Below, in pieces: positions 1-4,088 of a stretch of DNA of 29,921 nucleotides. Position 1 is the first letter of the stretch, and each line of letters opens with the position of its first letter. The notes beneath the pieces are model-generated. The model saw only the letters and a program-made list of their open reading frames with translations. It was not told where the DNA came from and ran no database searches. The position numbers and the translations under genes are program-made. The DNA is from a virus: IMG/VR virus record IMGVR_UViG_3300017719_000109, positions 1-29,921 of that record; one strand, 5' to 3'.

Positions 1-1
1 C

Positions 2-436
2 TATACTGAGTATGACGGCTTTGAGGATAGAGGGGAGTTATCTTTTCCCAATCTGCCGCCCAACCAGTGGTACATGGTCGACCTATTCCCAGGCTTCAAC
101 TTTAACCTTAGGGGGAGTGCCTATCGTAGTGACTCAGTAACACCATTAGGACCTAACAAAGTACTAATAGAGTTTAGAGGATATGGACTACGCAAAGACA
201 CACCAGAAGAACGTAGAACACGTATTAACCATCACAATAGTATATGGGGACCGTTCGGACGTAACCTACACGAAGACCTAATTGGAGTTGCTGGACAAGG
301 AACTACAATGCGTGAAGGTACCGAAGCAAGACACATACTACATGGCAGACATGAGAATGGCACTATACATGACGAAGTAGGTATGCGTCATTACTATAGT
401 GAATGGGGGAAGTATTTAGATATTAATCCTTATTAA
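2..436 (+). CDS. Rieske-type oxygenase alpha subunit, C-terminal part (partial)
   Basis: The reading frame is open from the left edge, so only the last 144 residues are present. The sequence GPFGRNLHEDLIGVAGQGT followed by HGRHEN, HDEVGMRHYY and SEWGKYL resembles the C-terminus of the catalytic domain of Rieske non-haem iron oxygenases. In that family an Asp in a GP-G...D-D/E-D stretch completes the two-His-one-carboxylate iron site; here the Asp of HED is the candidate. The Rieske Cys/His cluster and the two iron His residues would lie upstream, outside the window. Such enzymes hydroxylate aromatic rings or small organic compounds and need a reductase partner. A methanesulfonate monooxygenase-like subunit is possible, but that is recollection, not proof. 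The gene is followed by a promoter and tRNA genes and has the same AT-rich composition as the phage genes around it. Confidence 0.6.
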   Translation, partial: YTEYDGFEDRGELSFPNLPPNQWYMVDLFPGFNFNLRGSAYRSDSVTPLGPNKVLIEFRGYGLRKDTPEERRTRINHHNSIWGPFGRNLHEDLIGVAGQGTTMREGTEARHILHGRHENGTIHDEVGMRHYYSEWGKYLDINPY

Positions 437-449
437 TATCCAAAAGAGG

Positions 450-478
450 TTGACCTTTATAAATACTTGTGTTATAGT
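450..478 (+). promoter_or_regulatory. sigma70-type promoter
   Basis: TTGACC (450-455), a 17-base spacer, then TATAGT (473-478). It lies just after the stop of the oxygenase gene and reads towards the leader ORF, terminator and tRNAs. Expected transcription start is near 485. Confidence 0.6.
458..465 (+). promoter_or_regulatory. T4-type late promoter motif
   Basis: Exact TATAAATA, the T4 late promoter consensus. It lies inside the spacer of the sigma70-type promoter, so the same transcript could be made early and late. Expected start is near 471. Confidence 0.5.
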
Positions 479-510
479 AGTAACATAATAAGGAAATAGG
501 AATTTTAAAC

Positions 511-570
511 ATGATCAAGACTAATACAATATGTATAATATGTTGGCCACCTTCCGGGGGTATGTTTTGA
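511..570 (+). CDS. Possible leader peptide (19 aa, Cys/Trp codons)
   Basis: A short ORF encodes MIKTNTICIICWPPSGGMF. A weak AGG (498-500) lies 10 bases before the ATG, and a better AAGGA (490-494) is too far away. It lies between a promoter and an intrinsic terminator, and the next genes are tRNA-Trp and tRNA-Cys. It contains the codon run TGT ATA ATA TGT TGG (Cys-Ile-Ile-Cys-Trp), which matches both tRNAs. This is the layout of an attenuation leader, but a chance ORF of this size cannot be excluded. No known family is recognised. Confidence 0.35.
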   Translation: MIKTNTICIICWPPSGGMF

Positions 571-601
571 CATGACTTTGTAACCAAAAGTTATTTTAAA
601 C

Positions 602-638
602 AAGCCCCTAGTAATTAATTTTATTAGGGGCTTTTTTT
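602..638 (+). terminator. Rho-independent terminator directly before tRNA-Trp
   Basis: An 8-bp stem, AGCCCCTA (603-610) with TAGGGGCT (625-632), has a 14-base AT-rich loop and is followed by a run of T to 638. The next base, 639, is the first base of mature tRNA-Trp. Every promoter I can see for the tRNAs lies upstream of this terminator. Confidence 0.8.
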
Positions 639-712
639 GTGGGTGAAGTGTTACGGTAGCACGGCTGGCTCCAACCCAGCAAGATAGGGTTCAATTCCTT
701 ACACCCATGCCA
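639..712 (+). tRNA. tRNA-Trp (CCA)
   Basis: Acceptor stem GTGGGTG (639-645) pairs with CACCCAT (702-708), with one G-T pair at the end. The anticodon arm is GCTGG-CTCCAAC-CCAGC, giving anticodon CCA. The T arm is TAGGG-TTCAATT-CCTTA. Discriminator G709 is usual for bacterial tRNA-Trp, and CCA is encoded at 710-712. It is one base away from tRNA-Cys. Confidence 0.9.
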
Positions 713-713
713 A

Positions 714-787
714 CACTAAGTGGCAGAATGGTTATGCGACGGACTGCAACTCCGTTTATGCCGGTTCGATTCCGGCCTTAGTGTCCA
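714..787 (+). tRNA. tRNA-Cys (GCA)
   Basis: Acceptor stem CACTAAG (714-720) pairs perfectly with CTTAGTG (777-783). The anticodon arm is ACGGA-CTGCAAC-TCCGT, giving anticodon GCA. The T arm is GCCGG-TTCGATT-CCGGC. Discriminator T784 is the Cys identity base, and CCA is encoded at 785-787. It is probably co-transcribed with tRNA-Trp and separated by RNase processing. Confidence 0.93.
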
Positions 788-799
788 ACAATTTTTTCA

Positions 800-828
800 T
801 TGACAATAAGTATAGTTGATGTTATAAT
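800..828 (+). promoter_or_regulatory. Consensus sigma70 promoter
   Basis: TTGACA (800-805), 17 bases, TATAAT (823-828): both boxes are perfect. It lies between tRNA-Cys and the phosphoesterase gene, with expected start near 835. Confidence 0.85.
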
Positions 829-857
829 ATATTAACAATCAAACAAAGGACACAGAC

Positions 858-1379
858 ATGGCAAAAACTTTCGTAATTAGTGATACACATTTTAACCATG
901 CCCCTATCCTTGAGTTTAAAGATTACATTGGTAAACCTGTTAGAGATTTTGACAGTGTAGCTCAAATGAACGAAGCAATGATGGACAACTGGGTAAGTGT
1001 TGTTGGTCCAAAAGATACTGTTATCCACTGTGGTGATGTTCTTTTTGGAATGGACAAGGCTGACTGGATGGCCGCAAACTTTGATAAGTTACCAGGCAAA
1101 AAAAGACTTGTTGTTGGTAACCACGACAATGTAAAAATACTTGCTCCGTTCTTTAAGGACATACAGTTATGGATTGACATGAGCGACAAAGGTTTGTTGT
1201 TTAGTCATACTCCACAACATGCTAGTACACTTGCTGAGTCACACAGGTTTGGCGATAAACCTATACTTAACGTACATGGACATATCCATACTAACCCTAG
1301 TCCAGATGGTCCATATAAATGTGTATGTGTTGAGCAAATCGACTACACACCGTTAGATATAGACACTTTAATAACATAA
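858..1379 (+). CDS. Calcineurin-like metallophosphoesterase
   Basis: A 173-residue protein with the full set of metallophosphoesterase motifs: SDTHF (metal ligands D9 and H11), GD at 59-60, GNHD at 87-90, SHTP near 116-119, and GHIH at 141-144. These residues hold a two-metal centre that cleaves phosphomono- or diesters. The size fits the small single-domain members seen in bacteria and phages; the substrate cannot be read from the sequence. The start is supported by AAGGA at 846-850, seven bases before the ATG. A consensus sigma70 promoter directly upstream and a hairpin after the stop suggest a separate early transcript. It could process nucleotides, cyclic nucleotides or RNA ends, but nothing nearby decides. 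Confidence 0.85.
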   Translation: MAKTFVISDTHFNHAPILEFKDYIGKPVRDFDSVAQMNEAMMDNWVSVVGPKDTVIHCGDVLFGMDKADWMAANFDKLPGKKRLVVGNHDNVKILAPFFKDIQLWIDMSDKGLLFSHTPQHASTLAESHRFGDKPILNVHGHIHTNPSPDGPYKCVCVEQIDYTPLDIDTLIT

Positions 1380-1383
1380 AGTT

Positions 1384-1407
1384 AAGGCTTTTGGAAACAA
1401 AAGTCTT
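1384..1407 (+). other. Hairpin after the phosphoesterase gene
   Basis: AAGGCTTTT (1384-1392) and AAAAGTCTT (1399-1407) form a 9-bp stem with one G-T pair and a GGAAAC loop. No clean T run follows, so it may be a weak terminator or an RNA end-protecting structure. Its last two bases are also the start of the next promoter's -35 box. Confidence 0.4.
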
Positions 1408-1434
1408 GACTTCTCTATATTTTGGTGCTATAAT
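1406..1434 (+). promoter_or_regulatory. sigma70-type promoter
   Basis: TTGACT (1406-1411), 17 bases, perfect TATAAT (1429-1434). It reads into the gene at 1470, with expected start near 1441. Confidence 0.8.
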
Positions 1435-1472
1435 GTAAGTAATAATTAGGCAAATAACTAGAGGCAAATATG
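1429..1472 (+). repeat. Promoter-leader repeat, copy 1
   Basis: From the -10 box to the start codon, this stretch matches the one at 2227-2268 in nearly every block: TATAATGTA, then TAATAATTAGGCAAA, then AGAGGCA just before the ATG. The shared AGAGG is the ribosome binding site. Confidence 0.7.
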
Positions 1473-2195
1473 ATTAGCGATGTTAAAATTAAGAACGGAT
1501 ATCTAAGCAAGGATTCAATTCCATTGAAAACAGTTCCTACACAAGAAGCACTTGCTATGGCTGTAGCGGCACAACGTATTAACGGTGCTTATATCAAAGA
1601 CACTAGACGTTTTTCAGAACCTGATAACAAAACACAGTTTTCTAATAAAGAGATTGTGAAGTTTGCTTTCAGAAGCGATCATGCGCCAACTGACTATATA
1701 CGTCCTACTCCAACAGCCGACGACTATGCCAAAGTAGCAGAAATCCACAAATGGATGAAACGTTATGTGATGTTAGGATTAGGCGACTTAGACGATTTCA
1801 AACGAGACATGGTTGAAAGTGTATCACAAGATACTGTAATATACAACAACTTAGGGCGTGTAGCATTTATTCCTGAGTTTGTAAAACGTGATAAACTCGA
1901 AACAAGTCTTACAAAAGAAATTCGTATAGAGTATCGTGACAGTCAATACCTAGGCAAAGAGAAAGATATTGTTGAAGGTGTTATCAAGATACTAGATAAA
2001 CGTTACAGTGAACAATGGGAAAGCTATAACTACACAGCAGTTATAGACGGTAACCTAGTATCGTTTATGAACAAGTTTCCATATGATGTAGGCAGTATGC
2101 TACGTGTTAAAGGCAAAGTAAAAGCACAAACACAAAACAGATTGTTTGGTGCCAACGAAACACGTTTAAACTATGTTAAACTTTATAAAGTATAA
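1470..2195 (+). CDS. Unknown phage protein, possible C-terminal OB fold
   Basis: A 241-residue soluble protein that I do not recognise by name. The last 50 residues read as a short beta-rich domain: AVIDGNLVSFMNKF, then GSMLRVKGKVKAQ, then a final strand with TRLNYVKLYKV. That order (strand, aromatic turn, 'hydrophobic-KG-V' strand, 'T-LN-VK' strand) is common in OB-fold nucleic-acid-binding modules at the ends of phage replication proteins. The N-terminal two thirds are mainly helical and charged, with no motif I can name. Residues 70-85 include several prolines. It has its own near-consensus promoter and an AGAGG ribosome site. The leader is almost identical to that of the DNA ligase gene downstream, so the two are likely expressed together and may share a DNA-related role. 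That role is inference only. Confidence 0.75.
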   Translation: MISDVKIKNGYLSKDSIPLKTVPTQEALAMAVAAQRINGAYIKDTRRFSEPDNKTQFSNKEIVKFAFRSDHAPTDYIRPTPTADDYAKVAEIHKWMKRYVMLGLGDLDDFKRDMVESVSQDTVIYNNLGRVAFIPEFVKRDKLETSLTKEIRIEYRDSQYLGKEKDIVEGVIKILDKRYSEQWESYNYTAVIDGNLVSFMNKFPYDVGSMLRVKGKVKAQTQNRLFGANETRLNYVKLYKV

Positions 2196-2203
2196 ATTAG
2201 GGG

Positions 2204-2232
2204 TTGACATCTAGTTAAATAGATCGTATAAT
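2204..2232 (+). promoter_or_regulatory. Consensus sigma70 promoter
   Basis: TTGACA (2204-2209), 17 bases, TATAAT (2227-2232), both perfect. It drives the DNA ligase gene, with expected start near 2239. Confidence 0.85.
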
Positions 2233-2268
2233 GTATATAATAATTAGGCAAACAGAGAGGCATAAATG
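2227..2268 (+). repeat. Promoter-leader repeat, copy 2
   Basis: Second copy of the leader described at 1429-1472, ending at the ligase start codon. Differences are a two-base change after TATAATGTA and a small deletion before AGAGGCA. Confidence 0.7.
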
Positions 2269-3576
2269 AGAACACAACCGCAAGATATTATCGCAAAGTT
2301 AGAAGCAGACAATAGTAAGCTCGCTAAACAAGCAATCCTAAAAGAAGCACTTGAAGAAGGTGTTCCAGAATTTTTTGAAGGTGTCACAATGGCACTTGAT
2401 CCTCTTGTTACATTTGGTGTAAAGCAAGTACCTGAACGTACAGATGTGCTTACAGGACAAGGATTAGATTGGGATACATTTAAAGTCCTTGCTAATCAAT
2501 TAATCAATAGAGAACTTACAGGACATGCGGCACGTGATGCTATCATATTAGCAATGGGTGTTGCTACTACTGAACAGTGGAATGGATTTTATAGACGTAT
2601 CTTAATCAAAGACTTAAGATGTGGAATGAGTGAAAAGACTGTTAACAAAGTAGCACCAGGCACTGTACCAGTATTCACATGTAGTCTAGCACACGACTCA
2701 GCTAACCATGAAAAGAAGATGGTAGGCAAAAAGCAAATTGAAGTTAAACTAGACGGCGTAAGAGTATTAGCAGTATGTAAAAGCGGCAAGGTAGAATTGT
2801 TTAGCCGTAACGGAAAACAGTTTCATAACTTTCCGCACATTGTTAAAGAGATTGAAAACGTACTAAGTTGTACACCTGCTCCTTATGATTGTGTATTAGA
2901 CGGCGAAGTAATGAGCAAAGACTTTCAAGACCTTATGAAACAAGTACATAGAAAAGATGGTAAGGCCGCAACTGATAGTGTACTACACTTGTTTGACTTT
3001 ATTCCGTTGAAAGACTTTTTAGAAGGTGGATGGGATAAACCACAAACATATCGTAGTAATTTAGTTAAGTATTGGGTACTAGAAAACAATGACATCTTAG
3101 AGCACGTTGTAGCGTGTGAATGGGAAGAGGTAGACTTAGACACTCCCGAAGGTAACAAACGCTTTGTAGAGCTTAATAAGACGGCTGTAGACGGTGGTTA
3201 CGAAGGTGTTATGATTAAGGACGTTGATGCGCCCTACGAATGTAAACGTACACATGCTTGGTTAAAAGCAAAACCGTTTATTGAAATCACATTAACTGTC
3301 GTTGACGTTGAAGAAGGCACAGGACGTAACGAAGGAAGACTAGGTGCCGTAATAGTAGAAGGAGAAGACGATGGATACAATTATCGCCTTAACTGTGGGA
3401 GCGGTTTCACTGACGCTCAACGTGATGAGTACTGGACTGAACGTGCTAGTCTCATTGGTAACTTAATTGAAATAAGAGCAGATGCTCGAACTAAATCACA
3501 AGACAGTGATACATACAGTTTACGTTTTCCACGATTCAAAACGTTTCGTGGTTTCCAAGCTGGTGAGAAGATTTAA
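2266..3576 (+). CDS. lig: ATP-dependent DNA ligase
   Basis: A 436-residue enzyme that seals nicks in duplex DNA using ATP. The nucleotidyl-transfer motif I is KLDGVR, with K161 as the lysine that carries AMP. Further family motifs follow: FSRNGK near 179-184, LDGEV at 211-215 (motif III), EGVMIKD (motif IV) and WLKAKP (motif V). The C-terminal part (ITLTVVDVEEGTGRNEGRLG onward, ending RFPRFKTFR) is the OB-fold domain. The N-terminal 150 residues resemble the helical DNA-binding domain of T4 gp30-type ligases. It is somewhat shorter than T4 ligase but looks complete. It has its own consensus sigma70 promoter and an AGAGG ribosome site. Its stop overlaps the next start (TAATG), so the downstream membrane protein is probably translated by coupling. 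It likely serves phage DNA replication and repair. Confidence 0.93.
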   Translation: MRTQPQDIIAKLEADNSKLAKQAILKEALEEGVPEFFEGVTMALDPLVTFGVKQVPERTDVLTGQGLDWDTFKVLANQLINRELTGHAARDAIILAMGVATTEQWNGFYRRILIKDLRCGMSEKTVNKVAPGTVPVFTCSLAHDSANHEKKMVGKKQIEVKLDGVRVLAVCKSGKVELFSRNGKQFHNFPHIVKEIENVLSCTPAPYDCVLDGEVMSKDFQDLMKQVHRKDGKAATDSVLHLFDFIPLKDFLEGGWDKPQTYRSNLVKYWVLENNDILEHVVACEWEEVDLDTPEGNKRFVELNKTAVDGGYEGVMIKDVDAPYECKRTHAWLKAKPFIEITLTVVDVEEGTGRNEGRLGAVIVEGEDDGYNYRLNCGSGFTDAQRDEYWTERASLIGNLIEIRADARTKSQDSDTYSLRFPRFKTFRGFQAGEKI

Positions 3577-4088
3577 TGTATAGAGTAACGGCATATTTTA
3601 AAAATCACAAGGTCACACAATCATTTGTTGATCTATACGATGCTATAGACTGGAGAGATGTAGCCGACGCCCATTACCCTAAGAAAGTAACATTTGAAAA
3701 GGAGACTTCCATGAGAGAGTGGATTTATAATTGTTGGAATGTAGTAATGGATCATAATAAGAATCCGTTGAGTGTTATTCCGGACTTTAGTACACGACAT
3801 ATGATTATGCAGGTATTAGCATGGATGTGGTGTATTGTATTTGGTATCATTGTAGGTAGCATGTACATGGGAGTGTTTAGTATGGTACTACATACTCTAA
3901 TACTAGGAGCAATAGCAATTACTGTTGGTACATTTGAAACTGCCAAACGTAAGCCTAATGCGTTTAATTTTTCTAGCGGATATACATCATATGGCAGAGG
4001 TAGAACTTATACTATCTGGAGAGACGAAAAAGGTAATGCCAAAAAGGTTCCACTAGATCCCAACGATCCAGGAGGCGAACATGAGTGA
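3576..4088 (+). CDS. Putative two-helix membrane protein
   Basis: A 170-residue protein with two adjacent hydrophobic segments, roughly residues 78-98 and 100-120, and a glycine/tyrosine-rich hydrophilic tail. The ATG at 3576 overlaps the ligase stop (TAATG). A second in-frame ATG at 3711 has a much better ribosome site (AAAAGGAG ending about nine bases upstream) and would give a 125-residue protein keeping both membrane segments. The first 45 residues look like a small soluble unit, so both starts may be used. Function is unknown. The next gene starts inside this one (4081), and together they form a short run of small membrane proteins after the ligase. Confidence 0.65.
   Translation: MYRVTAYFKNHKVTQSFVDLYDAIDWRDVADAHYPKKVTFEKETSMREWIYNCWNVVMDHNKNPLSVIPDFSTRHMIMQVLAWMWCIVFGIIVGSMYMGVFSMVLHTLILGAIAITVGTFETAKRKPNAFNFSSGYTSYGRGRTYTIWRDEKGNAKKVPLDPNDPGGEHE

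Follow-up and report, generated by a model that had tools for sequence, protein, structure and literature searches.

How does a phage transcribe tRNA genes that begin directly behind an intrinsic terminator, when every promoter visible ahead of them lies before that terminator? The question is raised by positions 450 to 787 of the window analyzed here, a stretch of 29,921 nucleotides of viral DNA (IMG/VR record IMGVR_UViG_3300017719_000109). A preliminary description had placed a promoter, a short ORF, a terminator, a tRNA-Trp, and a tRNA-Cys in this region, with coordinates that proved exact to the base, and had proposed that ribosomes stalled in the ORF let transcription pass the terminator. 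At the level of sequence, that proposal was supported by every comparative test we ran: positions 450 to 787 probably represent a phage tRNA operon under ribosome-mediated transcription attenuation (Table 1).

Table 1. Features of the putative attenuator and its surroundings, in window coordinates
Feature	Position	Strand	Remark
Leader promoter, sigma-70-type, TTGACC-17-TATAGT	450..478	+	TG precedes the -10
Likely Shine-Dalgarno AGGAA for leader ORF	498..502	+	Sequence
Segment 1, start-codon region	510..521	+	Partner 564-574; folding and covariation
Leader ORF, MIKTNTICIICWPPSGGMF followed by stop	511..570	+	ORF; in-frame TGG and stop in all relatives
Control codons TGT TGG (Cys-Trp)	541..546	+	TGG invariant, neighbors variable
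Segment 2, G-run and stop-codon region	556..579	+	Partner is segment 1 or segment 3
Segment 3	587..609	+	Antiterminator with segment 2; 3' part is the terminator 5' arm
Intrinsic terminator (segments 3:4)	602..638	+	Stem 602-633, T-run 632-638
tRNA-Trp (CCA)	639..712	+	First gene past the attenuator; begins one base 3' of the T-run
tRNA-Cys (GCA)	714..787	+	A variable member among relatives
Promoter of next gene	800-828	+	Perfect match; first promoter-like site past the terminator
Phosphoesterase gene, PHROG 547	858-1379		Next gene after the tRNAs

A sequence scan of the + strand found no promoter-like site between the terminator and the tRNAs, in agreement with the preliminary description, and no start site was visible in the sequence inside 610-638, where the mapping of a transcript start would have spoken against attenuation. 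Since the phosphoesterase gene has its own promoter, the attenuated unit appears to consist of the tRNAs only. Upstream of the leader, a promoter matching at 10 to 11 of 12 positions was present in 70 of the 75 relatives with enough 5' DNA. A T4-type late promoter motif, TATAAATA, lies at window positions 458-465, in the spacer that separates the -35 from the -10 in the leader promoter; in several relatives it overlaps the -10.

Relatives were gathered in two ways. Eighty IMG/VR loci were collected via the downstream phosphoesterase protein and yielded about 34 distinct stretches upstream of tRNA-Trp. Wherever these reached far enough 5', the arrangement was constant: promoter, Shine-Dalgarno sequence, short ORF, G-run near the ORF end, terminator, and tRNA-Trp; the sole exception was a second tRNA-Trp of one locus (L067), inside another cluster. 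Pattern scans then gave 77 distinct leaders, to which relaxed patterns added a few, for a total of about 80 in IMG/VR. Six relaxed-pattern hits without Trp (L225-L227, L229, L232, and L233) had no downstream tRNA and look like chance matches. The pattern for a divergent leader group was unmatched in viral_contigs, yet that group is present among the protein-fetched loci (L063 and L069-L080), so its pattern or spacing was too strict. Conservation in about 80 distinct relatives excludes chance as the source of the leader arrangement.

The first tRNA downstream was tRNA-Trp in 72 distinct leaders, and the first gene past the terminator was a tRNA with a CCA anticodon wherever the contig continues (that of L129 ends there). 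An apparent exception, L142, was rejected: ARAGORN had overlooked its first tRNA, which carries a CCA anticodon loop. The other downstream tRNAs vary (Pro, Ser, Cys, Gln, Tyr, Ile, Met, Arg, Lys, Gly, and Glu).

The leader ORF itself carries the marks of a coding sequence. AGGA was found no more than 20 nt from the start codon in 74 of 76 leaders, and the distance from start codon to TGG was a multiple of three (27-36 nt) in all 77 aligned leaders, in which ATG or GTG serves as start, all three stop codons occur, and the distance from stop codon to terminator is free. The TGG column held a single codon in those 77 leaders, while each adjacent position held 7-23; Trp was required at selection, and only the contrast with the neighboring positions is informative. 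To avoid this circularity, a second set was picked solely by a motif 3' of the Trp codon (GGGGTNTGTCTTRANNYGACTTT): all 68 distinct hits had Trp among the final 14 codons when read in the ORF frame, and the two other frames gave 3 and 0. Nature has separated the coding constraint from the RNA constraint in two relatives (L230 and L237): their ORF frame is shifted relative to the 3' motif, yet TGG and ATG share a frame, and a TAG closes the ORF at the G-run with the RNA motif retained. The ORF, with a codon for the amino acid that would be sensed, was thus kept in every relative, and none had tRNAs and terminator without it, the case named at the outset as refuting attenuation.

Both Trp and Cys had been put forward as control amino acids on the strength of the sequence TGT ATA ATA TGT TGG (532-546). 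Trp held up fully, its codon and tRNA-Trp being constant; Cys did so in part: of 77 leaders, 67 have a Cys codon directly adjoining the one for Trp, but the downstream tRNA-Cys is often missing. Presence of the Cys codon was associated with a downstream tRNA-Cys (p 0.002), and codon/tRNA associations were also seen for Pro, Ile, and Gln, all of these still including clade effects.

A switch that is real and coupled to translation might nevertheless respond to a general slowing of translation, caused by shut-off of the host, by loss of ribosomes, or by a stall at the Pro-Pro that follows Trp, rather than to Trp-tRNA. Pro-Pro stretches can slow ribosomes, and a Pro codon (CCN) is the first or second after the TGG in most leaders. 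Yet Pro-Pro is not universal (WPL, WCS, WCLHRG, WCPI, and WCPK also occur), whereas TGG never varies and tRNA-Trp is without exception the first gene regulated; we consider general slowing unlikely as the signal.

Three mutually exclusive helices, 1:2, 2:3, and 3:4, were identified in the leader RNA, all of them conserved with compensatory changes. The preliminary description had suggested that GGGGGT (556-561) pairs with GCCCCT (604-609) of the terminator stem. This pairing exists, but it continues inward: 556-579 pairs with 587-609 in a much longer hairpin (-19.8 kcal/mol; z = -4.1 when compared with dinucleotide shuffles), of which further examples were seen, and which shares positions 602-609 with the terminator and is exclusive with it. 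A further helix had been missed: in the full-length fold, 510-521 pairs with 564-574, joining the start region of the ORF to its stop region and excluding 2:3. Covariation was assessed by permuting partners among relatives and comparing matched with swapped pairs. The resulting z values, about -7.7 for 1:2, about -5 for 2:3, about -11.5 for 3:4, and about 0 for non-partner controls, are corrected for descent only in part, as the relatives are not independent of each other. The G-run/C-run part alone covaried weakly (z -1.7) because it is hardly variable. Pair counts, made on 52 representatives, showed 91% of cells paired for 2:3, with four double changes, and 94% for 3:4. Within 1:2, a partner base was U in leaders starting with ATG and C in those starting with GTG (37 A-U and 14 G-C pairs), a change from A-U to G-C on both sides of the helix, and another pair was C-G in 28 and U-A in 5. 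Placed on a tree of the neighboring gene, the ATG/GTG label needed four changes, which are no proof of four independent double changes because so short a leader may recombine as a block.

These pairings bear on a plainer reading, in which the terminator serves an ordinary gene for a small conserved peptide, the tRNAs are made by constitutive leaky read-through, and the alternative helices are incidental. Intrinsic terminators do leak, and the peptide looks conserved. Its residues besides Trp, however, vary widely, and what is conserved near its end is RNA: the G-run codon may be AGG, GGG, TGG, or CGG, with GGT mostly coming next, so that the residue changes among Arg, Gly, and Trp and GGGG stays constant. 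With 1:2 and 2:3 covarying as well, constitutive leakage is a very improbable account. Least credible of all is a T-box-like RNA that needs no translation and binds tRNA-Trp directly, through base pairs between its UGG and the CCA anticodon: an invariant UGG does lie 5' of a terminator/antiterminator pair, and a new RNA class is conceivable where only tRNA families reach the Rfam threshold around the leader, but no T-box match appeared up to E = 5 (cmscan, window 1-3000, Rfam 15), and frame, Shine-Dalgarno sequence, start, and stop are conserved, with the TGG in frame even in the frame-shifted relatives.

Under ribosome-mediated attenuation, the favored reading, transcription would begin near position 485 with a ribosome trailing RNA polymerase on the leader ORF. 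With Trp-tRNA (and probably Cys-tRNA) plentiful, the ribosome would proceed to the stop codon within segment 2 and mask that segment; the 3:4 terminator would then form and the tRNAs would not be made. A ribosome halted at the TGG would leave segment 2 free, so that the 2:3 antiterminator could form before the 3' arm of the terminator exists and polymerase could continue into tRNA-Trp and tRNA-Cys. Helix 1:2 would act as a protector and probably also conceals the start codon from later ribosomes. Predicted folding is consistent with these states: when the leader was truncated from its 5' end to 12 nt beyond the Trp codon, 2:3 folded at -19.5 kcal/mol on average, and with segment 2 covered, the terminator alone remained. 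Two further predictions constrain the model. After a stall at Trp, the terminator state beats the antiterminator state in free energy (means of -27.0 versus -20.5), so the switch would have to act kinetically. With no ribosome and an incomplete terminator, 2:3 was predicted to be more stable than 1:2 in 70 of 76 leaders. Segment 1 would stay largely exposed while a ribosome waits at the Trp codon; the block of 1:2 must therefore be steric, in contrast to the direct covering in Escherichia coli trp. Most known attenuators, moreover, have more control codons than this single one for Trp.

The leader thus looks able, from its sequence, to sense slow reading of a Trp codon, and a shortage in the host would lead the phage to turn on tRNAs of its own. 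More tentatively, the operon may be under feedback by the charged level of its own first product: the leader would sense loss of host tRNA-Trp (and tRNA-Cys), for example to a defense nuclease that cuts tRNAs, and the tRNAs would be switched on only then. This is a possibility that we hold to be less likely than the attenuation mechanism itself. A conserved switch governed by slow decoding of a single codon would in itself mean that, at least in these phages, the tRNAs answer acute shortage and are not merely a constant help with codon usage.

Several other features were seen in the tRNA regions of the relatives. In some of them, terminator and tRNA-Trp are separated by a structured element about 80-90 nt long whose ends are inverted repeats (L005:2523-2612; also L007, L008, L009, L013, L016, and others); the L005 copy folds at -26.7 kcal/mol (z -3.75) and had no Rfam match at threshold. 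A similar CACACTC...GAGTGTG element lies 5' of tRNA-Ser in L026 and L058. Between tRNA-Ser and tRNA-Gly, L003:2555-2734 and L016:2265-2438 share a similar, apparently structured stretch of about 175 nt with no Rfam match, and L016:3038-3246, between tRNA-Leu and tRNA-Glu, gave a sub-threshold match to manA RNA (49.6 bits; gathering 55.2). Some tRNA-Trp(CCA) genes are 84-88 nt long with an apparent long variable arm, unusual for tRNA-Trp (L003:3675-3758, L026:3566-3653, L030:198-281, L063:133-217, and L067:3852-3936). L067 has two tRNA-Trp genes, 2326-2410 and 3852-3936, with the attenuator only at the second.

The carriers are a group of uncultivated giant phages. The terminase of a 275-kb relative (the contig of L162) was 54% identical to those of Pseudomonas jumbo phages of the PA5oct/MIJ3 group, and another window protein likewise had its best matches there, which makes Pseudomonas jumbo phages the nearest named relatives; a Gp23 search for phage classification found nothing, with controls equally without match. 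MIJ3 is listed with 12 tRNAs, Trp not among them (PMC6892783). Among 84,980 genomes of bacteria and archaea the leader had no exact match, and the 50,697 records of named phages contained no match either. The tRNA-Trp genes of six other phages (Ruegeria-type, Rhodobacter, Phaeobacter, Streptomyces, Enterococcus, and Bradyrhizobium) had no matching leader and terminator directly upstream, nor did such a leader precede the other tRNA clusters of the carrier phages (Asn, Ser, Gly, Thr, Leu, and others).

Phage tRNAs are known to evade retron and other defenses (PMC11555353) and to offset host tRNA loss (PMC11555353, PMC10264068). The phages described here would be alike in supplying tRNAs when those of the host are attacked or short, and differ in that the supply would be conditional on shortage; the text of both papers held nothing relevant on attenuation or leader terms. 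T-box riboswitches resemble the proposed switch in that tRNA charging state controls a choice between terminator and antiterminator, but they bind uncharged tRNA directly and without translation, whereas the phage leader has a conserved ORF that looks translated. The closest likeness is to the trp attenuator of Escherichia coli and other Proteobacteria (TrpL), which shares the short leader ORF with its Trp codon(s), the exclusive 1:2, 2:3, and 3:4 helices, and the intrinsic terminator ahead of the regulated genes. In sequence terms the design is that of a trp-type attenuator, every defining feature that we looked for having been found, down to regulated genes tied to the use of the sensed amino acid. 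Those genes encode tRNAs, whereas the trp attenuator controls biosynthetic enzymes; moreover, the phage leader has one Trp codon, usually adjoining a Cys codon, its stop codon lies inside segment 2 and its start codon within segment 1, and it is carried by phages. The type of switch is classical; as the preliminary description had surmised, its use on phage tRNA genes is without precedent in the open-access papers covered, in which no report of leader-peptide attenuation of such genes was found. New are the target, the carrier, the Cys codon beside the one for Trp, and the inclusion of the start codon in the protector helix. If the reading is right, leader-peptide attenuation, known for biosynthetic operons, extends to tRNA genes and to phages.
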